Notes: generated by a model from the letters alone, not told the origin. Shown: positions 27,714 to 64,000, numbered from the stretch's first letter. The stretch is DNA of 64,000 nt from an archaeon (GCA_020057295.1 JAGVGF010000006.1:124001-188000); one strand, 5' to 3'. Numbers and translations are program-made.

Positions 27714-27747
27714 AAAAATCCATATATGTTTGTACTTAAATTGTTTG

Positions 27748-28628: not shown

Positions 28629-28655
28629 CTATTTGTATAAACTAATGTATAATTA

Positions 28656-29987
28656 TTATTTTTCTTCCCAATTTACTTCTAAGAAGTGTGCACTACATGA
28701 GAAACATGGATCGTAGCTTCTAATTAATTTTTCTACATCCATAACAATATCTTCTTTAGTTTTAGAGTTTAATATTGCCGGCACAAGTGTTTTTATATCT
28801 TCCTGCATGTTTAGTAAATTTTGTGCTGTTGGAGTTATTATATTTGCATAAGTTATTACTCCTTTATCATCTAAAATATATTCGTGCCATAATGTTCCTC
28901 TTGGAACTTCTAGACATCCTACTCCTCGTCCTGCTTTTAGTGGAACTTTATCTACTGGCTCATTCTTTATTTTTAGTTCTTGACATATTTTTATTGCATG
29001 ATCTATACAGTGTACAATTTCTATTGCTTGCATAATATTATTATGGAATGGATTCTTCGAAGGTAATTTTATTCCTGACTGTTCAAGTAATTTTTTTGCA
29101 TCTGAACTTAATTGTGCATGATTATTATTGAATCTTGCAAGTGCTCCTACAAAATATCTATGATCACTCTTTACAACAAAATTTGCTGTGGATCTAGGTT
29201 CATGATACTCTTTGATGAAATCTTTATAATCTGTTCTCTTAAAACAACTTTTGGATGAGCAGAATTCTCCGCCAAATAATGCGTATTCATTATGATCTTT
29301 TAATGAAAACCATTCACCTTCAGTTTCTATATCTGGACATTTTAACGTAAAAAATAATTCACAAGTCTTTACAGCTTCTTCTTTTACATTTAACAACTCT
29401 GTTTTTAATTGTTCTAAATCTTCCTGTGTTGGTAATTTTAACCACCCACCCACTGTGGCTGATACTGGATGTAAATCTCTTCCAGATAAAATTCTTACAA
29501 TATTATTTCCTGCTTTTACTAAAGCTAAAGCTCGTTTTAATTCTGATTTATATTTTGGAGCCATCGCTAATGCTGATTCGTATCCTAGATAATCTGGTAA
29601 TGCTAAAAAATATAAATGCGTAGAATGACTTCTTATCCTTTCTCCTATTGTTAATAATTTTCTTAATTCTGTTGTTTGTTTTGATGGAGTGTATCCTAAT
29701 GCATCTTCTATTGCAGAAATTGCCGCTATTACATGTGCTGAACTGCATATTCCGCATATTCTTGAGGTTATTTCATGTGCTTCAAAATATTGTCTTCCTA
29801 GAACTAAACCTTCAAAATATCTTGATCCTTCTACTGATGATAATTCACATTTAGTAATTTTACCTTCTTTTATAGATAAATCTAATTTTGCGTGTCCTTC
29901 AATTTTTGTAATATGATTTAATGTGATTTCTTTGTTCGCATTGTCATTATTTTCTTTATTAACAAGATTATGCGATTCTTTACTCAT
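28656..29987 (-). CDS. hydA: [NiFe] hydrogenase large (alpha) subunit, group 3b-like
   Basis: The catalytic subunit (443 aa). The N-terminal Ni-Fe ligands lie in RICGICSSAH (about 77-86) and the C-terminal pair in DPCFSCSAH (about 426-434); the nine residues after that His (FLEVNWEEK) are the peptide removed by the maturation protease next door. ITKIEGHAKLDL near the N-terminus is also standard. The operon order beta-gamma-delta-alpha and the companion subunits match cytoplasmic bidirectional NAD(P)-linked hydrogenases (sulfhydrogenase type). It overlaps the delta gene by 8 bp. The first 20 residues are an Asn/Lys-rich extension. Confidence 0.95.
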   Translation of the reverse strand: MSKESHNLVNKENNDNANKEITLNHITKIEGHAKLDLSIKEGKITKCELSSVEGSRYFEGLVLGRQYFEAHEITSRICGICSSAHVIAAISAIEDALGYTPSKQTTELRKLLTIGERIRSHSTHLYFLALPDYLGYESALAMAPKYKSELKRALALVKAGNNIVRILSGRDLHPVSATVGGWLKLPTQEDLEQLKTELLNVKEEAVKTCELFFTLKCPDIETEGEWFSLKDHNEYALFGGEFCSSKSCFKRTDYKDFIKEYHEPRSTANFVVKSDHRYFVGALARFNNNHAQLSSDAKKLLEQSGIKLPSKNPFHNNIMQAIEIVHCIDHAIKICQELKIKNEPVDKVPLKAGRGVGCLEVPRGTLWHEYILDDKGVITYANIITPTAQNLLNMQEDIKTLVPAILNSKTKEDIVMDVEKLIRSYDPCFSCSAHFLEVNWEEK

Positions 29988-30804
29988 TTTTTGCTCCGAC
30001 CTTTTCTTTTGTATGTTTTATTACCTCGTCTAACATAGGTAATTTTAATCCTGCAAATGTTCTCATTCTGTCCTGTATAAATTTATCGTCAAATCCTTTT
30101 TCTCTTAATATTTTTATCATTAATTCTAGATTCATATCTTTGCTTGGTCCGCGACATCCCCAACATTCTAAACCACCATTAATACATACACTATTGCATC
30201 CGCCTGCAGTTATTGGTCCAAGACAAGGTTTTCCAACATCAAGTAAACATTCGTTACCATTTTGTCTACATTCAACACAAACCGGACTGCTATAAGGGAT
30301 TGGAATTTTTCCTCGTAGTACTGATCTTATGAATGTTAATATCTCTTTTTTATTTGGAGGACATCCTGGAATGTAATGATCGACTTTAATATGCATATCT
30401 ACTGGTGTTGGTTGTACATCTTCTAAATCTTCAACTTTTTTGTATAGTAAATGTTCATAATTTTCTTTTAACGTAAAATTTCTATATGCAGGAATACATC
30501 CAGTACATGCACATGCCCCTAATGATACTACAAATGTTGCATTTTCTCTTAATCTTTTTACTTCTTCTAAATCTTCCTTTGACGCAACTAATCCTTCAAT
30601 AAATACGTAATCATATTTTTCTTCAACATTAACTTCTTTAATGAATGGAAACGCTTTCAAATCTATTAACTCTATTAAATCTAATATTTCATCTTCGTTA
30701 AATAAAACCGATAATAAACATCCTGCACATCCTGTTATCCCATAGAATGCTACTTTAGGTTTTATTTTCGGAGCGTTTTTTATTATTGTTTTTGCTTTTA
30801 CCAT
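29980..30804 (-). CDS. hydD: [NiFe] hydrogenase small (delta) subunit
   Basis: The 274-aa iron-sulfur subunit that wires electrons to the active site. The proximal-cluster motif is GITGCAGCLLS (about 23-33), followed by GACACTGCIP and PGCPPNK; C-terminal clusters are in CVECRQNGNECLL, GKPCLGPITAGGCNSVC and GLECWGCRG. No Tat signal is present, so the enzyme stays in the cytoplasm. This arrangement is that of group 3 small subunits. Its stop overlaps the start of the large-subunit gene. Confidence 0.94.
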   Translation of the reverse strand: MVKAKTIIKNAPKIKPKVAFYGITGCAGCLLSVLFNEDEILDLIELIDLKAFPFIKEVNVEEKYDYVFIEGLVASKEDLEEVKRLRENATFVVSLGACACTGCIPAYRNFTLKENYEHLLYKKVEDLEDVQPTPVDMHIKVDHYIPGCPPNKKEILTFIRSVLRGKIPIPYSSPVCVECRQNGNECLLDVGKPCLGPITAGGCNSVCINGGLECWGCRGPSKDMNLELMIKILREKGFDDKFIQDRMRTFAGLKLPMLDEVIKHTKEKVGAKNE

Positions 30805-30833
30805 TTTAATTTTATTTTTTTGATATTAATATT

Positions 30834-31700
30834 TCAATCATTCTTTAAATCTTTTATCTCATCATATCTGAATACAGGACCGTCGATACATGTAAATTTT
30901 CCTCGAATCATGCAATGACAACAAACTCCTAAAGCACAATACATTAATCTTTCAGCACTTATAAATATTTGATCATCATTGAATCCTTTCTGTTTTAGTA
31001 TTTCTATTACAAATTTCATCATTACAGGCGGACCGCATATAAATACTACTTTATTTTCATTATTCATATTTGATGCTTTTAATGCTTCTGTCACAAATCC
31101 TGTTTTTGCATCATAACAGAAATCGTGTTTCTCATTTTGATCTACTGTAACGCTAAGATTATATTGTTTTCTCCATTCCTCAATTTCTCTCGAAAATAAT
31201 ATATCTTTTGGAGATCTATATCCTAAAAATAAATGTACATCTTTGTAGTCTTCTCTATTTTTTTCTACATAATCTATTATTCCACGTAACGGTGCTACTC
31301 CACATCCCCCTCCTATGATTATTAGATTATTTCCTTTTAATAATTTCATAGGGTAGCCGTGCCCATATGGTCCTCTTACTAATAATGTATCTCCTTTTTT
31401 TATATTTGCAAGAGCTTTTGTTACATTTCCTACTTCTCTAATATTTAATCGTACATATTTATTTGAGTATGAGCATATTGATATTGGACTCTCTCCAATT
31501 CCTGGCAGTGTTACTTGAACAAATTGACCTGGATCATGCTCTATTTGCATATCTAAAGTTATTGTAAATGTATCTGGTGTTTCTCTAAAATATTCTAATA
31601 CTTTGTATGGTTTTGGAATGTACGGATTTTCCTTCTTCGCTAAATTCTTTTTTACTGAAGATTTTTTACTCGTTTTTTCCGTTGTCTCTTTTTCTTTCAT
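30834..31700 (-). CDS. hydG: Hydrogenase/sulfhydrogenase gamma subunit (FAD/NAD(P)-binding)
   Basis: The 288-aa diaphorase subunit belongs to the ferredoxin-reductase-like family. After a 25-residue Lys-rich N-terminal extension, it has the FAD motif SPISICSYSN, the NAD(P) motif IIGGGCGVAPLRGIIDY (about 125-141) and a C-terminal [2Fe-2S] site in MYCALGVCCHCMIRGKFTC. It exchanges electrons between NAD(P)H and the hydrogenase. It overlaps the beta gene by 4 bp. Confidence 0.93.
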   Translation of the reverse strand: MKEKETTEKTSKKSSVKKNLAKKENPYIPKPYKVLEYFRETPDTFTITLDMQIEHDPGQFVQVTLPGIGESPISICSYSNKYVRLNIREVGNVTKALANIKKGDTLLVRGPYGHGYPMKLLKGNNLIIIGGGCGVAPLRGIIDYVEKNREDYKDVHLFLGYRSPKDILFSREIEEWRKQYNLSVTVDQNEKHDFCYDAKTGFVTEALKASNMNNENKVVFICGPPVMMKFVIEILKQKGFNDDQIFISAERLMYCALGVCCHCMIRGKFTCIDGPVFRYDEIKDLKND

Positions 31701-32668
31701 TTCATCTCATTGATTATTTGAACAAAATCTATCCTTGTAGGACATCCTTGTATACATCGTCCGCATCCTACACACATATTTACACCATATCGCTCTTTGA
31801 AATATTCTAATTGATGATATATCCTGTGTTTGAATCTTTCCTCACGTTTTTGTCTAAACACATGTTCCCCTGCAACTCTACTAAAGTCTAAAACTTGACA
31901 TGAACTCCAATTTCTTACTCTTTTTCCTTCTTGTATATTACTAGTTTTTGTCTCATCATGTAGTTCAAAACAATAGCATGTTGGACAAAGATTTGTACAA
32001 GCAGCACATGATAAACATTGATTTACTCCTTTCTGCCAGTCTGGATGATCATATAATCCTTTAATATCATCTTTTAGTAATCTGTCTGCTCCTTTAATCT
32101 TTTTTTCTTCTTTTGTGATTGTGATATCTATATCCTCAAATAACGTTTTAAATTCTTTTATGAGTTCTTTACCTTTATCTGATCCTACTTCCACCAAGAA
32201 ATAATCTTTCTTATCATAGAACATTAAATCGTAATAATCTGCTAAATTTAGTGTTCCACAAAAACAATATTTTGATGGAGCTTCCCAGCAATGAAATCCT
32301 AACAAGTAACTGTTTTCTCTTGCTGCCATATAATATGGATCTTTAATTTGTTCCATGAATACTTTATCTTGATGTTTTACTGCATTAAGGTCACATCTTC
32401 TCAGGCCGAAGAATATTCTTTTTGGTGTTTCTAGCTTTGGTTCCTGAATTTTGTTATCTTTAAATGTAAATACTGTTTCATTCTTTTTAAAGAAAAACTC
32501 TTTGGCTGGAAAATAAGTATTTTTTTCTAGATAAATATCCTTAACTTGTTCCTCTTTTACTAACTCAAACTTTGCAAGTTTACCTTTTAATGGAGCTACC
32601 AATTGGTTCTTCCTTGCAAATCCTTCTAAGAATATATTTAACTCATCCCTCTTTATTCTATAAACCAT
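31697..32668 (-). CDS. hydB: Hydrogenase/sulfhydrogenase beta subunit (2x[4Fe-4S])
   Basis: The 323-aa protein matches the beta subunit of archaeal sulfhydrogenases and AsrA. Two ferredoxin-like clusters are clear in the C-terminal half: CLSCAACTNLCPTCYC (about 218-233) and CVGCGRCIQGCP (about 302-313), with IRxDLNAV-type FGLRRCDLNAVKHQD near residue 90. First gene of the operon. The ATG is preceded by TAGGTGAG and a TATA box at 32699-32706, about 31 bp upstream. Divergent from the PDH operon. Confidence 0.93.
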   Translation of the reverse strand: MVYRIKRDELNIFLEGFARKNQLVAPLKGKLAKFELVKEEQVKDIYLEKNTYFPAKEFFFKKNETVFTFKDNKIQEPKLETPKRIFFGLRRCDLNAVKHQDKVFMEQIKDPYYMAARENSYLLGFHCWEAPSKYCFCGTLNLADYYDLMFYDKKDYFLVEVGSDKGKELIKEFKTLFEDIDITITKEEKKIKGADRLLKDDIKGLYDHPDWQKGVNQCLSCAACTNLCPTCYCFELHDETKTSNIQEGKRVRNWSSCQVLDFSRVAGEHVFRQKREERFKHRIYHQLEYFKERYGVNMCVGCGRCIQGCPTRIDFVQIINEMK

Positions 32669-49614: not shown

Positions 49615-49639
49615 TAAATTCTTTACTAAATTGAGTATC

Positions 49640-50218
49640 ATGACAGTATTCGGTGATAGTATAAACTTTTTAGTAAAGCTTGGCATCTACGATATAGTCT
49701 TGCCGTTCCTCTTAGTTTTTGTACTTGTTTTTGCACTTTTAGAGAAAACTAAAGCACTAGGAACTGAAAGAGCTCGTGACGACAAAGGCGAATATCAAGA
49801 ATATACTAAGAAGAACCTTAATGCTATGGTAGCGTTTGTTACTGGATTCTTTGTAGTAGCAAGTTCTCAACTTGTTTCCGTAATCAATAGAAGTTTATCA
49901 CAAATATTCTTATTATTATTACTTGTTATATGTTTCTTGATGGTTGCAGGAGCATTACATCAACAGACTAAGGAAGGATTCTTCCTTGATCCTAAGAAAC
50001 ACGGATTTTATTACGGTGCATTTATGGTTATAGTATTTGGAGGCATCATTGCTATATTCCTTAATTCTTTAGGTTGGCTTGATCTTGTGTATAACTTTTT
50101 AAAGGATAACTGGAATACAGATTATATTGCGTCAGTAATATTTATAATTATTATAGTAGGATTTATGGCTTGGATTATGAGTGATCCTAAACCTAAACCC
50201 GAAGAGAAAAAAGATTAA
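49640..50218 (+). CDS. Paralogous membrane protein 1 of 3
   Basis: The 192-aa protein has five likely helices. An upstream in-frame TTG (49631) is less likely, because the TATA box at 49607 would put the transcript start at the ATG. The N-terminal part reads GIYDIVLPFLLVFVLVFALL, then EKTKALGTE and KKNLNAMVAFVTGFFVVASS. The next two genes repeat this plan (PF-x-LVF-x5-A, KTK-x-LGTE, N-A-x2-A). No family recognised. First gene of an operon. Confidence 0.75.
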   Translation: MTVFGDSINFLVKLGIYDIVLPFLLVFVLVFALLEKTKALGTERARDDKGEYQEYTKKNLNAMVAFVTGFFVVASSQLVSVINRSLSQIFLLLLLVICFLMVAGALHQQTKEGFFLDPKKHGFYYGAFMVIVFGGIIAIFLNSLGWLDLVYNFLKDNWNTDYIASVIFIIIIVGFMAWIMSDPKPKPEEKKD

Positions 50219-50229
50219 AAGGTGAAATT

Positions 50230-50880
50230 ATGGCATACTACGGTACTGGTTATTATGGTAGTGGTTCTGGAGGAATTTTTGCTCAAGGAATCTTTAAATT
50301 ACAAGAGATGGGTATTGCAGATGTCATTCTACCATTCATTCTAGTATTCACAATCGTTTTTGCTGTAATGCAGAAGACTAAAATTTTAGGCACAGAGAAA
50401 GTTGGTACTGAGGATAAACCTCGAAAGAATTTTAACGCAGTTATTGCTTTAGTTATGGCTCTTGCTGTAATCATACCTCACGTTACTGGAACATATCCTA
50501 GTCCTGAATCTGATGTTGTAAACATTATGAATCAGGCTTTGCCTAATGTTTCTGTTGTATTAATTGCTGTAATTATGATGTTACTTATCATAGGAGTATT
50601 TGGTGGCGATGTGAGTATTGCTAAGACTTCACTTGCTGGATGGGCTGTTGTGTTCTCTGTACTCGCTACAATATTTATCTTCGGTAGTGCTGCTAATTGG
50701 TACAACTTGCCGAATTGGCTTTACTTCCTAAACGATTCAGACACTCAAGCACTTATAGTGATTATACTCGTATTTGCAATACTGATATGGTTCATTACTA
50801 AAGAAGATAAACCTAAAGATCCTAAAAAATACGGTGGTATTGAAGATCTTGGTAGAATCATGGGTTACAAAAAGGATTAA
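50230..50880 (+). CDS. Paralogous membrane protein 2 of 3
   Basis: At 216 aa it shares the plan of its neighbour: a Gly/Tyr-rich N-terminus (MAYYGTGYYGSGSGGI), then IADVILPFILVFTIVFAVMQ, KTKILGTEKVGTE, KNFNAVIALVMALAVIIPHV, two or three more helices and a charged tail with KDPKKYGGIEDLGRIMG. GGTGAAATT precedes the ATG. It starts 11 bp after gene 1. Function unknown; such triplets look lineage-specific. Confidence 0.75.
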   Translation: MAYYGTGYYGSGSGGIFAQGIFKLQEMGIADVILPFILVFTIVFAVMQKTKILGTEKVGTEDKPRKNFNAVIALVMALAVIIPHVTGTYPSPESDVVNIMNQALPNVSVVLIAVIMMLLIIGVFGGDVSIAKTSLAGWAVVFSVLATIFIFGSAANWYNLPNWLYFLNDSDTQALIVIILVFAILIWFITKEDKPKDPKKYGGIEDLGRIMGYKKD

Positions 50881-50882
50881 TC

Positions 50883-51464
50883 ATGGCAACATTTATTGAT
50901 ATAAGCATTATTAAGAACTTCACAACAATATTTACGTTCTTATTAGTGTTTGTTATAATCTACGGCTTATTAGAAATGTTTAACGTATTTGGTGAAGGCC
51001 GTAAGAGTATTCATGCAATTATTGCTATGGTTATCGCATTCTTAGTCAGTGTATCTAGTGGTGTATTGACTGTTATTCAAACATTCACACCGTGGTTTGT
51101 AATATTAATTTTATTTATATTTTTTATACTTTTTGCTGTTAGAATGTTTGGTGTTAGTGGTGAGAGTATTACTAAGGCATTTCATAACAAGAGCGCAATA
51201 CTTACATGGGTAATAATAATTACTGTACTAATATTATTATTCTCTTTAGGAGCAGGTTTTGGTCAACAAACTTTAGACCAAGGTCAAACAGGCGGTAAAG
51301 TTACTAGTGTTGCTACTGGTAATCAGACTGCGCCAACTGATAGTGGTGATTTTAGTCAGAATTTATATAATACTATCTATCATCCTAAAGTTTTAGGATT
51401 AATATTGGTAATGTTGATAGTTGTTGTTTCTATGTTATTATTGACGGATGCTGAAGGACCATAA
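50883..51464 (+). CDS. Paralogous membrane protein 3 of 3
   Basis: At 193 aa it is a shortened relative: FTTIFTFLLVFVIIYGLLEM, NVFGEGRKSIHAIIAMVIAF, then helices at about 63-86 and 103-122, an extracytoplasmic stretch with GQQTLDQGQTGGKVTS, and a last helix (KVLGLILVMLIVVVSMLLLT). It starts two bases after gene 2 and its stop is five bases from the convergent CTD protein. Function unknown. Confidence 0.75.
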   Translation: MATFIDISIIKNFTTIFTFLLVFVIIYGLLEMFNVFGEGRKSIHAIIAMVIAFLVSVSSGVLTVIQTFTPWFVILILFIFFILFAVRMFGVSGESITKAFHNKSAILTWVIIITVLILLFSLGAGFGQQTLDQGQTGGKVTSVATGNQTAPTDSGDFSQNLYNTIYHPKVLGLILVMLIVVVSMLLLTDAEGP

Positions 51465-51468
51465 GAAT

Positions 51469-53571
51469 TTATTTTTGTAAAATCATTTTTATTGTTTTTA
51501 CGTATGGTTTTTCTGTTCCTGTTGTTGGATTTACTGTCATTCTTAATAAATATAATCCGCTGCTTAATCCATTCCCATTTATTTGTTCTGTATAAGTTCC
51601 ACTTGATTGTATTCCTTCATCTATTTCTCTAACTAATTGTCCTAATGTATTATATAATCCTAATTTTACATGAGCATTCTGCTTTAGAGAGTATTGAATA
51701 TTTGTTGTTGGATTAAATGGATTAGGATAATTTTGTAATAATTCATAATTTTTAGGAACTGACTCGTCTATTCTAACACTTGTTAATGTTTTTGCTGTTA
51801 CTATCTTGCTAGTGTTTGATGCTACAACAGTATCTATGCCATCAGTAACTTTTCCAGTAAAAATATATGTTGTATTAGGTTCCAAAATATTTGATGGAAT
51901 TGTTAATTTTGTATTTTTTGTAATTATTACTGAATCTATTTTTCCACCCTTCATATTAATAATATATCTTAGCGTATCTGTATCTACTGAAGGATTCCAA
52001 TCTCTAACAACATCTACATTTGCATACTTTACAGTATCTGATACTTCCTTGAAACTCCAAGCAGATGGAGGAATATTTGCTGTTGTGAATGTTACAACGT
52101 TGGTTGCGTTTACTGTATCTATTCCATCTGTAACTTTTCCTTCGAGAGTGTATGAAGTGTTTGGTTTTAATAATGTTGAATCTATTAATACATTTCCAGA
52201 ATTATTTTTTACTTTGAAAATGAGATCTAAATCCGGACCAAAAACTCTTATTAGTCCTTTTAATGAATCACCGTCTGCATCTAAGGAAAAATTTGGTGTA
52301 TATATCACAGGTAGTTTCCCATTGGTAAATGTTGCTTTTGAATTATTTAATGGACTTATAATTGTAATAGGTTCTGGTGAAGTGTTCTTTGTTGTAAATT
52401 TTACAAATGGCGACCATGCACCTGCTCCTTTTGATCCAATGGTTCTTGTTCTTGTATAATATGTTGTATGTGCGTTACCGTTGAATGTTTTTGTTGTTCT
52501 GTCCATTGTTGAATCTTCTAATAATGGAACTGTTGTCGTATCCTTGAAGATTTGTAAATGATATCTTACTGCATTACTGTCTTTACTAGCAATAATATCT
52601 ACTAATTTATCTACAGTAGAATTATTAGATGGACTTGTTATAAGTCCAGAATTTGGAATTACAGGTTCGACAAAATCAGTCATATTGCCCATGAATAAAT
52701 CTTGTTGTTTGTCTCTCTTACGGAAATGTTGATCTAATGTTAAAGCAAGATAACTTCCATCAATTGGTTGCCATCCAGGATTAGACTGAACCGAAGGATC
52801 TGAATTAGATGGAACGGGTAAAGGAGGTATAGCAGGCCATCCATTATATGCCTTAACTATTTCGTGATTTATTCTCCAAATTTGAGAAGCTCCAATTTGA
52901 GAAGAGCCTTTGAATACTATACGATTTATATTATAATTTATACTACTAAAATTAGTTCCGGCATTCATAAATATCGTAAATGTTGTATCAGGGCTAGAAT
53001 TACTTGAAACAAAATTATACAAAGAATATCCTGTACTTCTCTCCATCGTATCTTTTGCAGCAATAATAGCCAAACTGTCTAGTCTTACTAATGTACTATC
53101 ACTTGAAAAATTTTCTATTCTTGTATTTACAGGATTTATTTGAGACCAGTGCGGAGGATCTTTATTTTTTGATACGTCATAAAGTCTCATCCACCATTCT
53201 GACACTAATGAATCTTTTCCCCACGGTCCCTCTCTTATTGTTTTTGGTGTTGCAAGCCATATTGTTGTATCGTTTGTAATATTCATATTTTGTTCAAATG
53301 TTTTATAATCTTGATGAGATAGTTTTACTGAATGTGTTCCTCCAGGTATTTTTGTAAAAGAAGAGTTACCATTCACGTCAGAAGATCTTGTATATTGTCC
53401 CTTATCTAAAGAAACAACGGCACCAGAAATAGGATTTCCTGCTCCATGTTTTAACTCTGTAACTTTAAAATTTACGTTAAATGTTTGTGCGAGAACGTTT
53501 GTTGTAAACATAGCTCCAGCTAATAAAGATAATCCTAATATCTTCGTCTTACGAACAATATTTTCAAGCAT
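51469..53571 (-). CDS. Secreted protein with T9SS type A-like C-terminal sorting domain (CTD protein 1)
   Basis: The 700-aa protein has a signal peptide (about 1-28, ILGLSLLAGAMFTTNVLA), a carboxypeptidase-regulatory-like beta domain (about 32-105), and a middle domain with INHEIVKAYNG. Three Fn3/Ig-like domains follow, two of them with a repeated VTDGIDTV motif. The last 85 residues match the T9SS type A sorting domain: LLQNYPNPFNPTTNIQYSL, VKLGLYNTLGQLVREI, GNGLSSGLYLLRM, KTIKMILQK. That domain belongs to Bacteroidota, Ignavibacteria and related phyla, not archaea. A TATA box (TTTATAAA) lies 21 bases upstream of the ATG. Full-length paralogue of the gene at 57642. Confidence 0.85.
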   Translation of the reverse strand: MLENIVRKTKILGLSLLAGAMFTTNVLAQTFNVNFKVTELKHGAGNPISGAVVSLDKGQYTRSSDVNGNSSFTKIPGGTHSVKLSHQDYKTFEQNMNITNDTTIWLATPKTIREGPWGKDSLVSEWWMRLYDVSKNKDPPHWSQINPVNTRIENFSSDSTLVRLDSLAIIAAKDTMERSTGYSLYNFVSSNSSPDTTFTIFMNAGTNFSSINYNINRIVFKGSSQIGASQIWRINHEIVKAYNGWPAIPPLPVPSNSDPSVQSNPGWQPIDGSYLALTLDQHFRKRDKQQDLFMGNMTDFVEPVIPNSGLITSPSNNSTVDKLVDIIASKDSNAVRYHLQIFKDTTTVPLLEDSTMDRTTKTFNGNAHTTYYTRTRTIGSKGAGAWSPFVKFTTKNTSPEPITIISPLNNSKATFTNGKLPVIYTPNFSLDADGDSLKGLIRVFGPDLDLIFKVKNNSGNVLIDSTLLKPNTSYTLEGKVTDGIDTVNATNVVTFTTANIPPSAWSFKEVSDTVKYANVDVVRDWNPSVDTDTLRYIINMKGGKIDSVIITKNTKLTIPSNILEPNTTYIFTGKVTDGIDTVVASNTSKIVTAKTLTSVRIDESVPKNYELLQNYPNPFNPTTNIQYSLKQNAHVKLGLYNTLGQLVREIDEGIQSSGTYTEQINGNGLSSGLYLLRMTVNPTTGTEKPYVKTIKMILQK

Positions 53572-53633
53572 AATATACCATAGAATAATAGGTTTATAAA
53601 TTTTACGCTTGTTACCACCTAACAGTTACTAAT

Positions 53634-56600
53634 TTACTTAACACTTAAGTTAAATTGATCATCATATATTTCGTAATTATTATACCAACTATTTAGACCA
53701 CAATAATTAGTAAATTTACTCTTACAAAGAGCATTAGTTCCACATAATTGAGTGGCAATTGATGGAAAATTTTGAAGAGGATATAAACAATCCGTCTTAA
53801 ATTGCCATTTATTAGTTGTTTTATTAAAAATTGCAGGTTGATCGCATTTCTTAGTCAAATTATTAGATGCAACAAGATTATTCATAATAGACCTATAACC
53901 TTCATCGCACTTCACAGGAGAAGGTTTGCATGAATCGGAAGACGAATAATAATCATATTTTTTATCAGGACACGCAGGGTAAATACCGCCTTTATCGCCT
54001 TGACCTTTCAAAGTTAATACTTCCTTAATTTTTTTGAATTCTCCTCCAGATATCGCAACGTACTTGTTTACACCTAAATCATAAGTCATTGTCTGTCCCT
54101 CTTTCAAACAAACAGGACATCCTGTAACATTATCTTGAACAATAGTTCCATTGACACATTCCGCATGCAATTTCATTTTAGAAGACACACCATGTTCAAT
54201 ATTACATAAAGCAGCATTAATTTTGTTTGGATCTAAAATAACGGAGTCAGTCGTAGTTCTCTCACGATCAATACCATCTGCATCTATTATTTTGGTAGTA
54301 TCAGGGAATTGATGTATTCCACAATCTGGATCCGCTGATGTTCCATTAACCTTTGCACATATAGGTGTACTCGAGAAATCATCAGGACAGAAACCATCCA
54401 TATTAATACTACAAGCTCTATCTTCAACTGTAGCATCAGGATAAACTATAGCCAAATCAGAAGGAGGACTACAAGTAACTTGTAAAACAAAAGATCTTTC
54501 TGATGATGCTTTTATCCATTCTTTACCATTCCATCTTGCACAATATCCATACTCTCCCTCAACAGAATACTTTACATTTGCGACACCTGTGGATTTACAG
54601 TATTTTAATAATGATTTTTGATCGGCACAAATATTTAATTGTGCTGTAGATCTAGTAGTTTTGTTGTCAATAGCAGACACCTTAGGGCTTACAGCAGTTA
54701 CAGCTCCAGAACCAACACAAGTAACAGAATTAATATCAGCACCGTATTTTAGATTTTGTCCTCCGACATAACTCAAACAAGGAGTTCCTACACCAATTTT
54801 TACTCCAACAATTGCATCACCATAACCTAAATAACTACAGAATTGTTTTAACGTGAAAGAATCACCACAAACAGGATATCTATTATTATCACCATTATAC
54901 AATTTAAGTAAATCGTTGCTCGTAGAATAAGTTTGTTTACTATTAGATAAAGGTCTTCCAATTTTATAATTATTACATATAACTCCTCCTGCACCTAACT
55001 GATTAACTAGGAGAGAAGGCCATTCTGTAAATCCTTTAAGAACAGCACCATATTGATTGTATGTAGTAGCTGCATTATTACAAGTATCAATTATTATTTT
55101 ATAATTTCCTGAACTACCATACCATATATTACTTCTAAAAACACCCGATCCTGGTAATCCATCACGGAATGCAGCCTGCATAGCATATAATCTGTTGGCA
55201 ACAAAATGTTCTGTAGTCTCTCCAGGACTTAATGAAACGGAATAAGTTATCGAACCTCTCTGATTACCATCAACAGTTGCTCCATCTTTTACTCTGTGAT
55301 TACCACCAGCAAACATTTCACCATCATAACTAATTTTGAAATCTGGATCATCAACGCTACCAATATCAACTTGTAAATTCGATACAAGATCTTGACATGT
55401 TGTTGCTGGACCATGATAATCGACAGTTATTCCAATTGCACCATTAGTATCACAAGAATATACAGCTCCATATGCACTGTTAGTAACACCAGGTATTATA
55501 TTACATCTATTACCACCAGTTAATGTTACACCTTCAATTTTACAATCAATTTTTTTACATGCATTACTACACGCATCAGCAAAATCTTCACTATTACCAT
55601 CATCACATTCTTCTGCACCTTGTACTCTTCCATCACCACAACTCTGACAAGTTCCTTGTCCAGTAATACTATTACAATCAGAACTACATGTTGGTACACC
55701 TATGTAAGCACCATAATAATTAGTACCAGCAGCACTCTTTCCACCATAAAATTCTGAACAAGTGTGTGATCCAGGATTTGTTCCGTCACAAGTCTCTGTT
55801 CCTTCAACAGCATTATTACCACAATAAGAACATGTTCCTCGAGTAATTGCACAAGTACTACTACAAGAAGGAGTTCCATGATTCATATCACGATCAACAT
55901 TATTATACACGATACTATATTCAGAGCAAGTATGCGAACCAATATTTGTTTTATCACATTCTTCAGTACCTTCAATAATATTATTCATACATAAAGAACA
56001 AGTTCCTTTCGTTAAAGCACAATTAGTACACGATGGAGTTCCATGATTCAAATTCCAGTAAGCATTGTTAAACAATGTAGTGAATTCATCACAACTATAA
56101 CCACCAAGATTTGAACCATCACACTGCTCACTTCCTTCAACAATATTATTCATACACAAAGAACATGATCCTAAAGTTATTTGACAATTACCATTACATC
56201 CTGGAGTTCCATGATTCAAATTCCAGTCAGCATTGTTAAACAATGTAGTAAAATAGTCACATGAATATCCTTCATCTAAATTAATCACTGAACCATCGCA
56301 TTGTTCATAAACTCCATAAGCATTAGGCCATTGAAGAGAACCATCGCCGCATCGTGTACAGTCTGGATCAGATATCCCGTGACTTGCACATATTCCTGAC
56401 GATATTCCGCAACTTGATCCATAATTATTCGGACATATTCCATCACTGGCTCCGCAAGTATAAATATTATAATTTCCAGAAGAAACATCATATAATTTTA
56501 CACCATAACCGTGTGTTCCAGAATAACATGTTCCAGAACATATTGGAGATATTGATCCTGAGCAAACATAAGATGTAGTCCAGCTACCACATTCATATAC

Positions 56601-57497
56601 ACATCCAGTTCCAGAGCCGTTCCATAATGCAAATTGTTCTAAAGAGTTTAAAGGTTTTGCATCGAAAGATTCTCCATTAATAAATTCGCGATTATTCACC
56701 GAAATATCAGATAAAGTTATTTTTGGACAAATCCAGGAACTGCAATATTGTGAAGTCTGACAGACACCGGTACAATAATAATTATCTGGAGCATCGCAAG
56801 TCATTTCTGCATTTGTGTTACATGAACCTTCACAATAACAATTTCTATTATTTAATTCTCCTCCTTGTTTACTATCACACATAGTTGTTGGTGAACTATA
56901 TGTTACAGCGTAAACTTTATTATTGCCTGGAGTGTTATCACAAATGTAGTTGTAACATCCACCATTAGCTACGACATACATTCCGTCTTTGTAAGACACT
57001 GTACCATAAGAACTACATGCAATGTTTTGGCATTGACCATTTACACAATTCTGATTTGCTCCACACACATTTCCACACGATCCACAATTAGTAACAGTAT
57101 TTATTGGAGTCTCACACCCATCAGATGCTATTTGATTACAATTTTTTTGTGTATTACGCGCACAAGGTTCGCATCCGCTAGAATCATCACAGTAAGAATT
57201 TATGCCACAATTTTGACTAAAATAACACGATACGCCACCAGTCCACCTAGCAGTGTTATATCCTGTACTCGTACAACCAAGAAAATCAATAGGATTACAA
57301 CTAGGATAAGAAACGGGATTTTTAAACACACATGCTCCACCAGTCCATGTACACAAACTATTCATTAAACATCCTGAATATGATTCGTGTGGACAAGGTG
57401 GACGCGCATAAACAATGTTTGATAATATTATTACTAAAAATATTAGTAGAACAATGGTGATTCCTTTCCAAATATAACTTCGCCTACTCATCCTCAT
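53634..57497 (-). CDS. Giant cysteine-rich surface protein 1 (1287 aa)
   Basis: After a basic start and a hydrophobic signal (about 12-32, GITIVLLIFLVIILSNIVYA), the protein is a mosaic of Cys-rich modules. These include an EB/EGF-like CGSCGNVCGANQNCVNGQC (about 140-158); five DUF4215/Myxococcus-repeat-like units of about 55 residues, each with CGDG or CMNN, E-x-CD and HGTP-x-C (55590-56350); a sandwich domain starting CKIEGVTLTGGNRC; and two copies of an unnamed domain with C-x-D-x4-L-x2-[YF]-C and a later V-T-C (about 54840-54700 and 54640-54470). No sortase or membrane anchor at the C-terminus. A TATA box lies upstream; ribosome site AAGGT. Followed after 62 bp by CTD protein 1. Confidence 0.8.
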   Translation of the reverse strand: MRMSRRSYIWKGITIVLLIFLVIILSNIVYARPPCPHESYSGCLMNSLCTWTGGACVFKNPVSYPSCNPIDFLGCTSTGYNTARWTGGVSCYFSQNCGINSYCDDSSGCEPCARNTQKNCNQIASDGCETPINTVTNCGSCGNVCGANQNCVNGQCQNIACSSYGTVSYKDGMYVVANGGCYNYICDNTPGNNKVYAVTYSSPTTMCDSKQGGELNNRNCYCEGSCNTNAEMTCDAPDNYYCTGVCQTSQYCSSWICPKITLSDISVNNREFINGESFDAKPLNSLEQFALWNGSGTGCVYECGSWTTSYVCSGSISPICSGTCYSGTHGYGVKLYDVSSGNYNIYTCGASDGICPNNYGSSCGISSGICASHGISDPDCTRCGDGSLQWPNAYGVYEQCDGSVINLDEGYSCDYFTTLFNNADWNLNHGTPGCNGNCQITLGSCSLCMNNIVEGSEQCDGSNLGGYSCDEFTTLFNNAYWNLNHGTPSCTNCALTKGTCSLCMNNIIEGTEECDKTNIGSHTCSEYSIVYNNVDRDMNHGTPSCSSTCAITRGTCSYCGNNAVEGTETCDGTNPGSHTCSEFYGGKSAAGTNYYGAYIGVPTCSSDCNSITGQGTCQSCGDGRVQGAEECDDGNSEDFADACSNACKKIDCKIEGVTLTGGNRCNIIPGVTNSAYGAVYSCDTNGAIGITVDYHGPATTCQDLVSNLQVDIGSVDDPDFKISYDGEMFAGGNHRVKDGATVDGNQRGSITYSVSLSPGETTEHFVANRLYAMQAAFRDGLPGSGVFRSNIWYGSSGNYKIIIDTCNNAATTYNQYGAVLKGFTEWPSLLVNQLGAGGVICNNYKIGRPLSNSKQTYSTSNDLLKLYNGDNNRYPVCGDSFTLKQFCSYLGYGDAIVGVKIGVGTPCLSYVGGQNLKYGADINSVTCVGSGAVTAVSPKVSAIDNKTTRSTAQLNICADQKSLLKYCKSTGVANVKYSVEGEYGYCARWNGKEWIKASSERSFVLQVTCSPPSDLAIVYPDATVEDRACSINMDGFCPDDFSSTPICAKVNGTSADPDCGIHQFPDTTKIIDADGIDRERTTTDSVILDPNKINAALCNIEHGVSSKMKLHAECVNGTIVQDNVTGCPVCLKEGQTMTYDLGVNKYVAISGGEFKKIKEVLTLKGQGDKGGIYPACPDKKYDYYSSSDSCKPSPVKCDEGYRSIMNNLVASNNLTKKCDQPAIFNKTTNKWQFKTDCLYPLQNFPSIATQLCGTNALCKSKFTNYCGLNSWYNNYEIYDDQFNLSVK
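55590..56350 (-). repeat. Five in-frame Cys-rich repeats of about 165 bp
   Basis: Within Cys-rich protein 1. The three central units share nearly identical DNA (for example CATTGTTAAACAATGTAG at about 56065 and 56235). Each unit encodes about 55 residues with the signature (C)xNN-x-EG-x-E-x-CD, then SC-x2-[FY], N-x3-N-HGTP-x-C. The two outer units are more divergent. The high DNA identity of the inner copies suggests recent expansion or gene conversion. Confidence 0.75.
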
Positions 57498-57641
57498 TTT
57501 TTACCTTTTAACTCACCTTTTAGTAATACACGACAATGTTATTTAAATATATTGCGTTTTTTAAACTTAAATTTAGATAATATAAAAACTAAGAATAGTA
57601 TCTGTTAATATATCTATTATGAAAATATATAATAAGAAAAA

Positions 57642-59441
57642 TTATTTTTTCAAAATCATCTTTATGGTTTTCATGTATGGTTTTTCTGTTCCTGTTGTCG
57701 GATTTGCAATCATTCTCAATAAATATACACCGCTACTTAATCCGTTTCCATCTACTTGTTCTGTATACATTCCAGAATTTTGTATTCCTTTATCTACTTC
57801 TCTGACTAATTGTCCTAATGTGTTATATAATCCTAATGTTACATGAGCATTCTGCTTTAATGAATATCTAACATTTGTCGTCGGATTAAAAGGATTAGGA
57901 GAGTTTTGTGAAAGTTCGAACGATTTAGTATTATTTTTTAATATTAATTCTATATTGTTTGAATATTTAAATTGTCCATCATTATCTATTTGTTTTAATC
58001 TATATTCTACTGTATCAGAAATATTTGTTTCTACAAATTCATATGTTCTTGATACGGATGAACTTCCTGAACCTTGAACAAATCCTACTCTTTTCCAATC
58101 TTTAATTTTTCTATCAACATTTTTTTCTACATCAAAGCCATAATTATTTACTTCTGTTGCAGTAGTCCATTTAAGACGAGCAATATTATCAATATATGAT
58201 CCTATAAACGATACTAATTCTACTGGAAGAGGAGTTGAATTAGTAGTATTTGACCATTCACTAACTCCTGCTTCGTTTTTTGCTCTAACTCTTACAAAAT
58301 ATTTTGTATTTGGAGAAGCAGTAAAATTTTTATCTGTTCTTCTAAGTAAAGAATCATTTACTGAAAAAGTTGTGAATGATGAATCTGTGGATATTTGTAA
58401 ATGATATGTTTCCGTACCAAATGAATTTGTCCATTTAACAAGCATTTCTAAAGGGACTCCTGTTGAATTATTAACTGGTTGTGTTATAGATACTGAAGAT
58501 GGAATTGTTGGACTAACATAATCTTCTATATTTAATAAGAATGCGTTTTGTTCTCCTCTAACTTTTGCCTTATGATGTCTCTCAGCAGTTTTTGTTAATA
58601 TATTATCATCTAATGTAAATTCTGGAGGATGTCCGTTCGGATCCATATTACTTGAAAATGTTGTTACATAACTTTTATCATCTCCAAATCCTGCAACTTC
58701 GTGTTGTAAGATAGGAATTGTTGGACCAGGAGAAACATTTGCACTGATAATATTTATTAAACCATTTCCATCATCGAATATAGTAGTTTGATTGTTATAT
58801 GGACTGTTAAAAGTTATTAGCACTCCACCATTATCTACTACATCCGCTGAATCTGTTGTTAATATATATCTTTTTTCTTTCAATATAAATTCTATGCTTG
58901 ATGTGTCGGAATCTTGCCATTGCGTTAATCCATTTCCTAATGCTTTTCTAAATATTAACGAATCGTATGATGTTGCGTTGCTTAAGAATGTTTTTTTAGG
59001 GTAATCTGCAAATAGAGGGTCTTTATTTTTTGGAGCACTACTTGAATATAGATCTATCATTTTCTCAGCTGTAATTATTCCTGTTCCTTTAGTTACAGTT
59101 TGTGTTGTTTCTGGAAGCGTAAAATTTAATGTCTTATTGCTTGTAATATTTACTGCAGTTTCAAAAAAATCCATATATCCTTTTTTACTGATTCTTACAT
59201 TATGTGTTCCTGATTGTATTCCTGCAATGGAGTAATTTCCGTTAACATCTGTTTCTGCAGTAATGGCACTTGAATCCACATATAATTTTACATTTTCTAT
59301 TGGAACTCCTGTTGAATCTTTTAATGAAGTAATTTTTCCTTGTAAAGTGTAGTTTTGAGCTGAAGCTAATCCTGATACAAATAAAACAGGTAAAACTATT
59401 TTACGGAATAATCTACCTACAATATTATCGAGTTTTAGCAT
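57642..59441 (-). CDS. Secreted protein with T9SS type A-like C-terminal sorting domain (CTD protein 2)
   Basis: At 599 aa it is a shorter full-length paralogue of the gene at 51469. Signal peptide (about 10-28, RKIVLPVLFVSGLASA), carboxypeptidase-regulatory-like domain (GVPIENVKLYVDSSAITAET), the shared middle domain with PILQHEVAGFGDD, one Fn3-like domain (YHLQISTDSSF), a discoidin/sorting-linker block typical of Bacteroidota exoproteins (TATEVNNYGFDVEK), and a C-terminal T9SS type A domain (NSPNPFNPTTNVRYSLKQ, LGLYNTLGQLVREV, KTIKMILKK). Its last 240 bp are about 85 percent identical to those of CTD protein 1. TATA box TTTATAAA again 21 bases before the ATG. Located between the two Cys-rich genes. 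Confidence 0.85.
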   Translation of the reverse strand: MLKLDNIVGRLFRKIVLPVLFVSGLASAQNYTLQGKITSLKDSTGVPIENVKLYVDSSAITAETDVNGNYSIAGIQSGTHNVRISKKGYMDFFETAVNITSNKTLNFTLPETTQTVTKGTGIITAEKMIDLYSSSAPKNKDPLFADYPKKTFLSNATSYDSLIFRKALGNGLTQWQDSDTSSIEFILKEKRYILTTDSADVVDNGGVLITFNSPYNNQTTIFDDGNGLINIISANVSPGPTIPILQHEVAGFGDDKSYVTTFSSNMDPNGHPPEFTLDDNILTKTAERHHKAKVRGEQNAFLLNIEDYVSPTIPSSVSITQPVNNSTGVPLEMLVKWTNSFGTETYHLQISTDSSFTTFSVNDSLLRRTDKNFTASPNTKYFVRVRAKNEAGVSEWSNTTNSTPLPVELVSFIGSYIDNIARLKWTTATEVNNYGFDVEKNVDRKIKDWKRVGFVQGSGSSSVSRTYEFVETNISDTVEYRLKQIDNDGQFKYSNNIELILKNNTKSFELSQNSPNPFNPTTNVRYSLKQNAHVTLGLYNTLGQLVREVDKGIQNSGMYTEQVDGNGLSSGVYLLRMIANPTTGTEKPYMKTIKMILKK

Positions 59442-59529: not shown

Positions 59530-62500
59530 CTAGTTTACAACAATATTTTTCTTTCCATAAATAAGATATTTTCCACTCGTACTATTAAACAAATTAGAAA
59601 TTCCACAATAATAACCTATTTTATCAGTCACAACAATATCAGGGAATGTACAATTAGTAATAATACTATTTACAATAAGATCATATTTCGGATCTTCAAC
59701 AATGTTACCAGGAATTACAGCTGCAGTAGGATTTATTAAACAATTGCGTACACATTCATTAGATAAAGTAACTTTTTTCTTATCTAAACCACATTTTTTA
59801 GCACATTTTTTAACAGTATCAGCACTAGAACCATTAACTCTCTCATCACCAGTTATATTCACAAATAAAGGTAACTTAAATAACGCGTTAAGCAATTTAG
59901 AACAATTATTTCCTGTATTGAAATCCGTACCTACATCACAACTATTTAAAGCCGGAAAACAATATCCGTCTGTCAAACCATATCTGAATCCTTGAGGACA
60001 AAGAGTTTTATTAGCTGAACATATAACTGTATTTCCATCGTAATTAGTTACAGCAGGATTATCCAAATTTAAACTTGCTACTAGACATGCAGCTTGACCA
60101 CTAGAATTTTTATACACACAATTAGACGCGCCAGCGCATATCTTATGAACAGGAGGAACTGGTAATGCACATGATTGACCTAAAACAGTTAGTCCAAGTT
60201 TATCACGAACTTCTGCGCATGTCATCCACGTATGATGTGCAGAATCTATAGTGAAATTTACACCAGAGTTTGCAACAGGAATATTTTGTGTATGTGGATA
60301 GAATTTATCATCAACAGTATTCAAAGTTTTTGCCGCGTTTGTAAAGAATGCTGCTCCGCCAGGAGGAATTACACCCATTAATTTTCCTGCACATTTAGCA
60401 GGAATTGTACCATTTAAAGTATAATTAAATTCTATAGAAGTACTTCCTGCGCCAATACTTAAATCTCCCATTTCGCTACTATTTAATCCAATCACAGCTC
60501 CTTGACCGCCAATGTTACATGCACCATCAGTACTATTAATATCAACTTGTGCAAATCTTGCAGCAGAACAATCACCTGTAAAATTAATTACTACACGAAC
60601 TTTATCTTTTGGAGCACACACTCCCCTATCACAACCAGTACCAGGATACACTGCAACATTTGTAATAGAACATAATTGACAATATACACATCCAGGATTA
60701 CTACTATCACAACTCTCACCATATTGAGGTTGAGTAATTCCATCACCACATCGTGCAGCATCTTGAGTCCATTTCGGCCAATCTATAGTGCATGTATCAA
60801 GACATGGTGCATGACCAGGATAAGGCTGTCCAGCTTTTACGACATGAGTTACACCGAGTGTATCGCATATTTCTCGACCATTATTATTATGATCTCCGTA
60901 TATTTTATAATAATTAGTTCCGCCAGCATTAAGTCCTCGTTGAAAATCATTTTCGGTTAAATCATAAAATGTCCTATCAAGATTAGAAATATCATATGTT
61001 TGAGTTTCATCATTACACCAACTATCATATTTAAAATCACAATGTAACGTAGCCATAAAATAATTAGGATCAGTATCACTAAGAGGAACAACATAAAAAT
61101 CAGGATAATCTGGAACCCACCATCTATTAGACCAAAATTTTGAATGGTTTAAATATCCCCAAAAGCCAGTAAACTGTCTCCATTCTATGTGTGCTTGATA
61201 CCCGCTTTCACAATACGTTTCAGTGCCATCACAAAGAGTTCCATTTTGTGCAAGCCAAGGAAAAGGACCTCCATTAAGATTAGTAGCTCCTTCAGAAATA
61301 GTCTGTGCAATAGCATCTCCACATCTAGTCCTAAGAGTACAATTAGGCGAGCATCCACTACCATCTTGACCAATCATGTTGTCAGGATCATACTCGTCAT
61401 AAGGATCATTTGCTCTTCTTGAGCATGTTACTGATGTTGTAATATTCTTACTATTATTTGTTATCCATTGTAATCCATTCCATAATTTACATGATGCTAC
61501 AGAACCTGAATGAGTCGCAGCAGCTTCATTTGAAGTTGCATAATTATTATCTATACAATATTTTACTCTGCTTGGTTTATCATCACATATAACAACGCGA
61601 GATCCGTCTGTTGCATTTGGAGAAGGATATGTTTTACTTCCACTAGTAGTATTATAATCGCATTGTTCGCCTGCATCTAATTTTCCATCACCACATATTG
61701 GACCAATAATAGTTATATTTGAACATGTAGTATTACAATAGGAACAAACAGTATTAGGTGCAGCAACACATGCTGTGTTAGTATTAAATCCTCCTAAATC
61801 ACATTGTTCTGTAATACTATTATGATTAGGAGTTTGTTTCATACCATCACCACAGATTGACCAATGACATTTGTAACAATCAGCAGTATCAGTAGGACCA
61901 ACATCACATTGTTCTCCATATATTGTATCTACAAAATAATTTCCACAAGAGCCATTAGTTAAAGTTATACCTTTAGTTAGTGTTGTAGAATAATAATTAG
62001 ATTGTTTGTTTAAAGGAATTGGTAAACCACTATAAGCTTCTGAAGCGACTAGTGTTAAAGTTTGTCCATTACATCCAACGGGTATTGAAGGAATTTTATC
62101 GCTAAGTAAATTTGTAGGAGAAGTAAAACTACTAAGATTAGGATTGAAGATTAATAATATCATTTTAGAAATAACATTAGTAGAATCTGGAGTGTTATAA
62201 TTCATAACACAAGAACCGTATGCAGATGCGAAATCTATCTGTACACTTTTTGCTTTAGAACAATCTCCAGTATAATTTACAGTAATATTTAATTTATTAT
62301 CAGAATTACATGCACTATTAACAATATCACATCCATTACCTGGTTTAATATCTATACCAGTAATTTTGCAAGTTCCACACGCTCCATCGCCCATACAGAA
62401 TGTATTTGCTGGACATTGTGCATCACTAGTACACGCAACACATTGCCGGAATATGCATGTAGGCTTCAAAGAATTTTTAACTACACAATCAGTATTAGTA

Positions 62501-64000
62501 TCACACTCTATATTATATAAGTATATAGGATTTATCTGTGTACCAGCATAATACGCAAGAATGGTTGGAGGAAGAGTTGCTCCAATACCAAAATATTCCG
62601 TGTCTATTTTTTCAGAAACATCTTTAGAAGCTAGAACTTTTTTGGAAGGATATGAACCAAGTAAATCATCTTCAGTAATGTCTAATAATCTTTTTGATAA
62701 GTCATTAACAGGTAAAGATTTTACAACAACTCCACCATCATATCTAAATGATATTCCTGTAATATTATTTATTACTTTATTACCACAAATCAAAGGAAGT
62801 GTTGGTACTGTATAAGTAAAAGACGTAGTAGTTATAAGAGGAGTATTTAATAATGTATTAGATCCTGTCATGCCTTTCATCGAGCCACTACTAAATTGTA
62901 TCTTACAAGAATTATCAGAACTTGCAGCATCCACTTGTATTGCTTCTGTTAATGCACAATTGCCAGTATATCTAACATTAACAGTCCAAGTAGTACCAAC
63001 ATTACATGCATTAGCACTACTGCTACCACATGATGAAGGAGTAATTGATGCACTTAATATTGTACAATCTTTAATTTGACAAGTATTAGTACATCCGACA
63101 CTAGTATCTGGAATATTATTGGAGCAAGTAACAGGATATACATAAGCGGCAATCAGAGTATTCCATCCCCCAACATATTTGATACATGGCGTTCCAAAAG
63201 TTATTGGTGTTGCGCCAACAGTTGCAGTATTAAATCCATTCTCCAAACAGAATCTTGTCAATGAAGTAGTATCTCCACATACACCATAATAGTTAGCACC
63301 ATTATTATTTGAACGTTGCATAGATGCAGTAGTACTAAACGTAACAGATGATGGAGGTATATAATCACATTGCTCGCCAGAATCTGTAATAGTATTACCA
63401 CATGTTGTACATCGTGAAACATCATATCCACTACAACCAGTATTACATCCTAATGTTCCTATCCATGTTCTACCATCATTCTTTACGCCCGTACAAGTCA
63501 TAGAATTCAGCGTTGTACCATCACATGTTTCTGAAAATTCTTTAACATTATTTCCACAATATCCACATTTACTATAATCAAAATTACAAGAATTAGTACA
63601 TGAAACAACTCCATTATTGCAGTTCACAGCATTTCCGTTAGCATTAGAACATGAATTGTATTGACTGCAAACTTTTCCATTAATATCAGAACCGTCACAT
63701 ATTTCAGCAGGTTCTCTTATACCATTACTACAATAACCACAACCAGCAGAATTTAGTTTACATCCACCACAAATTAAATTTCCGTTGTTGGCCGGAACAT
63801 CAGCACCATTTCCTTGTGGATCGCTATACACATTATAGTTTGCACAAGTTTTTCCATAAGCAGTTGAACCGTCACATTCATCTCCTCTATTTGGATCGAT
63901 TATATTATCACCACAAATACTCGGAACCCATGAACATCCTAAAGTAGTACATTTAGCTCCACGATACGCGCTACAATCAATTGTACCATCACAATAATTT
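59530..64000 (-). CDS. Giant cysteine-rich surface protein 2 (5' part outside window)
   Basis: The frame is open to the right edge, so at least 1490 residues are encoded and the N-terminus is missing; an apparent start at 63831 is an internal GTG. It is a paralogue of the gene at 53634 with many CGDG-x-E-x-CD units (e.g. CGYCGNNVKEFSETCDG). It has three copies of a sandwich domain (C-x-I-x3-I-x-P-G-x-GCD ... YTGDC-x2-A-x2-VQID; about 63080, 62360 and 60660), and at least two copies of the C-x-D-x4-L-x2-[FY]-C ... VTCS domain (about 63280 and 61580). It ends without a membrane anchor. CTD protein 2 starts 88 bp downstream. Confidence 0.8.
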   Translation of the reverse strand, partial: NYCDGTIDCSAYRGAKCTTLGCSWVPSICGDNIIDPNRGDECDGSTAYGKTCANYNVYSDPQGNGADVPANNGNLICGGCKLNSAGCGYCSNGIREPAEICDGSDINGKVCSQYNSCSNANGNAVNCNNGVVSCTNSCNFDYSKCGYCGNNVKEFSETCDGTTLNSMTCTGVKNDGRTWIGTLGCNTGCSGYDVSRCTTCGNTITDSGEQCDYIPPSSVTFSTTASMQRSNNNGANYYGVCGDTTSLTRFCLENGFNTATVGATPITFGTPCIKYVGGWNTLIAAYVYPVTCSNNIPDTSVGCTNTCQIKDCTILSASITPSSCGSSSANACNVGTTWTVNVRYTGNCALTEAIQVDAASSDNSCKIQFSSGSMKGMTGSNTLLNTPLITTTSFTYTVPTLPLICGNKVINNITGISFRYDGGVVVKSLPVNDLSKRLLDITEDDLLGSYPSKKVLASKDVSEKIDTEYFGIGATLPPTILAYYAGTQINPIYLYNIECDTNTDCVVKNSLKPTCIFRQCVACTSDAQCPANTFCMGDGACGTCKITGIDIKPGNGCDIVNSACNSDNKLNITVNYTGDCSKAKSVQIDFASAYGSCVMNYNTPDSTNVISKMILLIFNPNLSSFTSPTNLLSDKIPSIPVGCNGQTLTLVASEAYSGLPIPLNKQSNYYSTTLTKGITLTNGSCGNYFVDTIYGEQCDVGPTDTADCYKCHWSICGDGMKQTPNHNSITEQCDLGGFNTNTACVAAPNTVCSYCNTTCSNITIIGPICGDGKLDAGEQCDYNTTSGSKTYPSPNATDGSRVVICDDKPSRVKYCIDNNYATSNEAAATHSGSVASCKLWNGLQWITNNSKNITTSVTCSRRANDPYDEYDPDNMIGQDGSGCSPNCTLRTRCGDAIAQTISEGATNLNGGPFPWLAQNGTLCDGTETYCESGYQAHIEWRQFTGFWGYLNHSKFWSNRWWVPDYPDFYVVPLSDTDPNYFMATLHCDFKYDSWCNDETQTYDISNLDRTFYDLTENDFQRGLNAGGTNYYKIYGDHNNNGREICDTLGVTHVVKAGQPYPGHAPCLDTCTIDWPKWTQDAARCGDGITQPQYGESCDSSNPGCVYCQLCSITNVAVYPGTGCDRGVCAPKDKVRVVINFTGDCSAARFAQVDINSTDGACNIGGQGAVIGLNSSEMGDLSIGAGSTSIEFNYTLNGTIPAKCAGKLMGVIPPGGAAFFTNAAKTLNTVDDKFYPHTQNIPVANSGVNFTIDSAHHTWMTCAEVRDKLGLTVLGQSCALPVPPVHKICAGASNCVYKNSSGQAACLVASLNLDNPAVTNYDGNTVICSANKTLCPQGFRYGLTDGYCFPALNSCDVGTDFNTGNNCSKLLNALFKLPLFVNITGDERVNGSSADTVKKCAKKCGLDKKKVTLSNECVRNCLINPTAAVIPGNIVEDPKYDLIVNSIITNCTFPDIVVTDKIGYYCGISNLFNSTSGKYLIYGKKNIVVN

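Follow-up and report, generated by a model that had tools for sequence, protein, structure and literature searches.

Proteins with the C-terminal domain (CTD) of the type IX secretion system (T9SS) were described in a 2023 review as restricted to Bacteroidota, and their distribution was found to track the T9SS components strictly, with few exceptions (PMC10202324). A 2024 paper reported that archaea are without T9SS genes (PMC11285876). The T9SS CTD serves as a proxy for the T9SS and is said to be confined to Bacteroidota or to the Fibrobacterota–Chlorobiota–Bacteroidota (FCB) group, in step with the machinery. In the literature searched, no paper connected DPANN to type IX secretion or Woesearchaeota to the T9SS. 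In this study, we analysed a stretch of 64,000 nucleotides from an archaeon (GCA_020057295.1 JAGVGF010000006.1:124001-188000; the whole stretch is called the window), in which two proteins, P0001 and P0002, end in CTDs of type A.

Type A sorting domains in two archaeal proteins

P0001 (700 aa; 51469..53571, minus strand) consists of a putative signal peptide, a CarboxypepD_reg/PEGA-like domain, a middle part of unassigned fold, immunoglobulin (Ig)-like repeats and the CTD at residues 603-700 (51472..51765, minus strand). P0002 (599 aa; 57642..59441, minus strand) has a putative signal peptide, a CarboxypepD_reg domain, a middle region, a fibronectin type III (fn3)-like domain, a pre-CTD domain and the CTD at residues 502-599 (57645..57938, minus strand). 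An earlier, sequence-only reading had given these coordinates, which proved correct, as did the reading frames, and had taken both C-termini for type A sorting domains. The profile matches agreed with that assignment: the CTD of P0001 scored 37.4 bits with PF18962 (cut-off 27) and 32.6 bits with TIGR04183 (cut-off 23), and that of P0002 scored 30.6 and 28.7 bits, so that neither domain showed the sub-threshold scores that would have spoken against it. The landmarks NPFNPTT, LGLYNTLGQLVRE, SSG-x-YLLRM and the final KTIKMIL[QK]K were present at the extreme C-terminus of both. The two C-termini are thus confirmed as genuine type A T9SS-type CTDs. The extreme C-terminal position and the Lys-rich final strand are shared by both window proteins and by all five copies in their genome.

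The AlphaFold2 (AF2) model of P0002 residues 396-599 was all-beta with two tandem domains, and its mean predicted local distance difference test score (pLDDT) was 86, with the CTD mostly at 85-96. The CTD of P0002 is accordingly predicted to be an Ig-like antiparallel beta-sandwich. Foldseek returned FNIII/Ig tandems and PorU 6za2 among the matches of this model. When P0002 was modelled at full length with only P0001, AF2 gave a pLDDT of 32, too low to be of use for the middle region. The window CTDs resemble the described T9SS type A CTD in above-cut-off score, motifs, C-terminal position, Lys-rich terminal strand and predicted beta-sandwich, but they occur in archaea without SprA or Omp85. 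FlgD_ig (PF13860) is also similar, since P0001 and P0002 match it below threshold and an internal copy in a relative (L086) passes the cut-off; however, the window proteins score higher on PF18962 and carry the C-terminal Lys motif. The middle regions had been considered as a decayed metallopeptidase because of loose HE motifs, and this was dropped since Pfam shows no peptidase in the relatives.

Archaeal setting and absence of the translocon

The source genome has 1.20 Mb in 6 contigs, with completeness 100 and contamination 0.46. From its size and gene content, we infer that its phylum is DPANN/Nanoarchaeota-like, and the organism is probably symbiotic. The window was read as archaeal from the start, and this is upheld by its genes for topoisomerase VI (Topo VI) A and B, ABCE1/RLI, RIO1 and a KRR1/Pno1-type KH protein. 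Past the start of the P0004 gene, which runs out of the window, the contig carries more archaeal genes, including L34e/L14e-like ribosomal proteins (named by eye). P0001 was also noted to lie close to a membrane operon. The closeness was borne out, as only 4 bp separate the stop codon of P0001 from that of a three-gene operon of small multi-transmembrane proteins (49631..51464, plus strand; no Pfam match). However, the two are convergent, tail to tail, which indicates proximity and not co-transcription, and P0001 stands outside that operon.

The data are a metagenome-assembled genome (MAG), and in another genome of the set (G155) a PorV_fam match sits on a bacterial-looking contig; both points would favour an assembly chimera or bacterial contamination as the source of the CTD genes in the window. 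However, the genome has five above-cut-off CTD genes spread over four contigs amid archaeal genes, where they alternate with archaeal surface genes, and in codon usage each of the five matches the genome at least as well as an average gene does (z +0.7 to +2.3). The GC and tetranucleotide composition is continuous at 51.47 kb, with no sign of the break that had been proposed as evidence of a bacterial contig. Moreover, ~260 bp separate a CTD gene and an archaeal ribosomal-protein/rpoD operon in the single-contig genome G004 (gene names by eye). A chimeric join at 51.47 kb is rejected on the continuous composition, the four contigs, the native codon usage and G004. Because CTD loci are found on other contigs and in a single-contig relative, a chimera is very unlikely, and we give this whole explanation hardly any credence. 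The PorV_fam match of G155 was discarded as bacterial contamination; its contig (L239, G155 C2:5001-20000) is bacterial-looking within an archaeal MAG and is a probable contaminant.

It had been stated that an archaeon has no known T9SS, and the search for the machinery agreed with this. The SprA/Sov translocon (TIGR04189) was absent from the source genome and from all 36 archaeal genomes tested, while it was present in 5/5 FCB control genomes carrying CTDs; a hidden SprA is rejected, as these positive controls were detected. The source genome also gave no match to PorV_fam (NF033709), for the PorV shuttle, or to C25 peptidase (PF01364), for the PorU sortase, in a search for T9SS parts that covered SprA, the PorV family and C25. 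Omp85 (PF01103) of the beta-barrel assembly machinery (BAM) was found in 0/36 archaeal genomes, with 7 bacterial controls positive. The further statement that an archaeon lacks an outer membrane fits this absence of Omp85, yet it needs qualification, as, unexpectedly, the phylum has several outer-membrane-barrel-like proteins in archaeal contexts.

These barrel-like proteins bear on the possibility that the archaea possess a diverged, unrecognised T9SS-like exporter together with an outer-membrane-like layer. PorV/FadL-family relatives occur among archaeal genes in G004 (L220:9846-10757, minus strand), G198 (L237:1417-2394, plus strand; with aIF2-gamma-like and S6e-like genes some 4-5 kb away) and G204 (L236:1435-2778, plus strand). 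They resemble PorV/PorQ and FadL barrels in matching NF033709, all below the curated cut-offs (9e-14 for the G004 protein), but they differ in their archaeal contexts, and G004 has no Omp85 (it is among the 36 genomes tested, and G198 and G204 are outside that set). Matches to the Peptidase_C25 (gingipain) family were observed in four CTD-bearing archaea (G112 C54:4802-5899, G119 C7:338-1024, G068 C27:12241-13017 and G126 C54:6986-7786), and the G112 protein has a lipoprotein-like N-terminus. Although both families would be in favour of such an exporter, SprA and Omp85 are absent from all 36 archaeal genomes, and the PorV_fam and C25 matches are absent from the source genome itself, so we consider it highly improbable. 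In archaea without the secretion machine, the tag probably has another job on the archaeal surface. We favour, with about even confidence, the reading that the CTDs are exapted as archaeal surface docking modules, which have a lateral origin in FCB bacteria, were codon-ameliorated, and are kept by selection without a T9SS translocon.

Probable lateral origin and maintenance of the CTDs

In a scan of named genomes that excluded the window's own genome, the nearest CTDs among the matches listed belonged to Ignavibacteria, Melioribacteraceae, Balneolota and other FCB phyla, with up to 53% identity. The pre-CTD beta domain of P0002 (residues 405-501, PLPVELVSF...YRLKQIDNDG; 57939..58229, minus strand) also matches bacterial CTD proteins. 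When the last 200 residues of P0002 were compared with FCB proteins, the pre-CTD domain and the CTD matched together: the best match (L199) gave 147 bits at 42% identity, ten other bacterial fragments gave 94-137 bits, and the identities were 34-42% over about 190 aa. P0002 thus shares the block of both domains with the Ignavibacteria/Bacteroidota proteins that carry a PLPVELxSF pre-CTD domain, which is a fingerprint of transfer and agrees with the FCB-type origin suggested earlier. On the other hand, a bacterial match of its N-terminal half was established only for the common CarboxypepD_reg domain, and its gene lies beside Cys-rich archaeal giants.

A phylogeny of the CTDs had been proposed as the means to identify the donor. 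The tree of 110 rows and 92 columns interspersed the archaeal CTDs among the bacterial ones, and its starred branches force at least 2 label changes, which indicates that the archaeal sequences do not form one clean clade. The mixing was seen, but the tree is poorly resolved, and its columns do not suffice for naming the donors or counting the transfers. The CTDs were probably acquired laterally from FCB bacteria with Ignavibacteria-like donors, and probably more than once. The tags are carried by scattered relatives in the phylum, and their distribution is patchy. Above-cut-off matches were found in 34/371 sampled genomes of the phylum, which is an upper bound on CTD-bearing genomes because some matches are on short contigs and single MAG contigs may be contaminants.

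The patchy distribution, the mixed tree, the whole bacterial pre-CTD and CTD block of P0002 and the internal position of some copies would also be expected if the CTDs had arrived as passengers with transferred FCB secreted proteins and had no particular function beyond a stable Ig-like fold. However, P0001 and P0002 are 82% identical in the CTD and 25-45% identical over most of the rest (25-38% outside the signal peptide), so that identity jumps sharply at the CTD boundary. The CTD pair showed a nonsynonymous divergence (dN) of 0.11 and a synonymous divergence (dS) of 0.54-0.57, and the dN/dS of about 0.2 indicates purifying selection. The pair from G216 and G224 gave dN 0.28 and dS 1.8 in the part that precedes the CTD; in the CTD itself, dN was 0.31 and dS was saturated. 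A final Lys was found in 21/27 C-terminal archaeal CTDs (22 of relatives and 5 of the source genome), compared with a background of 25% in the source proteome. The conserved Lys terminus and the conserved gene pairings described below also argue against mere passengers, an account that we regard as unlikely, although it is the strongest of the alternatives. The earlier suggestion of a transferred domain with a preserved shape was supported as regards the transfer; shape alone is less likely, given the purifying selection, the Lys terminus and the gene partners. The earlier reading had offered surface attachment or recognition by a bacterial partner as the other option, and taken as a whole it is supported in part.

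Gene partners, barrel-like proteins and a possible surface role

The CTD genes of the window and their neighbours lie in the order P0004-P0002-P0003-P0001. P0003 (1287 aa, 7.6% Cys; 53634..57497, minus strand) adjoins both P0001 and P0002, and P0004 (2093 aa; 59530..63999, minus strand, the 3' part of a gene that extends to 65811) adjoins P0002. Both are Cys-rich secreted-type archaeal surface proteins and are paralogous (E=8e-20), so that the window contains a tandem duplication of a Cys-rich giant with a CTD protein. All five CTD genes of the source genome have a large secreted-type neighbour on the same strand within 150 bp, compared with 28/186 other secreted-like genes, as defined by a crude signal-peptide rule. 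At the locus on contig C4, a CarboxypepD_reg/He_PIG protein (C4_621) is followed by a CTD protein and a barrel-like protein. Homologues of C4_621 adjoin CTD genes in G216, G224, G068 and G090, and in G073 one adjoins a barrel-like gene without a CTD. The partner on C2 (C2_671) has a homologue beside the CTD gene of G004 (E=1e-53). These two tag-partner pairings recur across families. Elsewhere in the window, hydrogenase-maturation-like genes (HypD, HypE, HypF) and cytosolic NiFe-hydrogenase-like subunits were observed at 23457-32668 (named by eye).

We propose that signal peptides would direct the CTD proteins out of the cell by the archaeal Sec pathway; the N-termini show a classical n-h-c pattern ending in A-Q, as judged by eye and regular expression only. 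The CTD would have ceased to signal export across an outer membrane and would instead act as a C-terminal Ig-like docking module at the cell surface. It may tether its protein to a partner expressed with it, for which the large secreted protein of the adjacent gene is the likeliest candidate. In this account the domain identity, its C-terminal position, the absence of SprA, the purifying selection and the conserved gene pairing are computational results, and the export by Sec, the surface location and the binding to the partner are inferred from them. Several observations weigh against this docking role. The domain is internal in 7/29 archaeal relatives examined, where it lies near the N-terminal CarboxypepD_reg domain if one is recognised, and such a position is in keeping with a generic Ig domain rather than a docking tag at the terminus. 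The CTD dS of P0001 and P0002 is below that of the upstream part, so recent gene conversion may explain part of their CTD identity. The nominal P of about 1e-8 for the Lys-terminus enrichment, like other nominal P-values, ignores relatedness. By a strict criterion, only 6/17 relatives pair the CTD gene with a large secreted gene, and the pairing could reflect co-regulation only.

The candidate binding partners of the CTD include an FCB neighbour as well as an archaeal protein. It was reported that PorU of P. gingivalis is part of an attachment complex which cleaves CTDs and attaches anionic lipopolysaccharide (PMC11285876). With this precedent, the surface T9SS attachment machinery of an FCB neighbour (PorU/PorV/PorZ) might read the CTD and fasten the archaeon or its proteins to that bacterium, perhaps with the help of barrel proteins that can insert into the outer membrane of another cell. 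The attraction of this account is that the C-terminal position and the final Lys, which bacterial readers use, are retained; moreover, the nearest CTDs are from Ignavibacteria/FCB, and outer-membrane-barrel-like proteins are found by CTD genes or elsewhere in the phylum with no Omp85 in the 36 genomes. Internal CTDs, however, cannot serve as such tags, and this organism has no recognised host, so we think it unlikely, and slightly more so than the passenger origin. The tags and the barrel-like proteins could even form a mimicry kit, in which a bacterial partner would recognise the Sec-exported tags with its surface machinery and the tags would anchor archaeal proteins to the partner's outer membrane, but we find this more doubtful still.

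The family evidence for barrels is weak in the source genome and better in the relatives. Four secreted-type proteins of the source genome have a putative barrel-like C-terminal beta-signal (C4:170910-172220, minus strand; C1:51199-51936, plus strand; C1:154159-155007, minus strand; C2:72364-73707, minus strand), and C1:155261-156376 (plus strand) is a possible further one. All of them have archaeal genes around them, and Omp85 is missing from the genome; barrel-like proteins adjoin tag genes in some cases. Weak family matches were obtained for C2:72364-73707 with OMP_b-brl (E=0.006) and for C1:51199-51936 with OpcA (E=0.066), and the other barrel-like proteins of this genome gave no relevant family match. 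The C4 protein is homologous to the barrel-like proteins of G216 and G224 (28%, E=3e-10), and also to proteins of G073 and G226. Scans of viral contigs found no barrel-like homologues. The A8 family (C1:155261-156376, plus strand; C5:56161-57231, minus strand) is beta-rich and adjoins an AbrB/PhoU-like regulator gene in several genera; it was initially taken for barrels, and some of its relatives are without obvious signal peptides. At C5:53463-56145 (minus strand) of the source genome (G000), a beta-rich secreted-type protein has two SPFH/Band_7 proteins and a small lipoprotein-like one clustered with it.

A maintained and recurrent set of CTDs in archaea without the translocon breaks the rule that the CTD follows the T9SS, and it calls for caution in CTD-based prediction of secretion. 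The occurrence of barrel-like proteins where Omp85 is lacking is a puzzle of its own. The mimicry kit, if true, would mean that a secretion tag of bacteria is used across domains. The finding also offers a concrete molecular lead on surface construction in small, probably symbiotic archaea, and perhaps on the organisms with which they are in contact.

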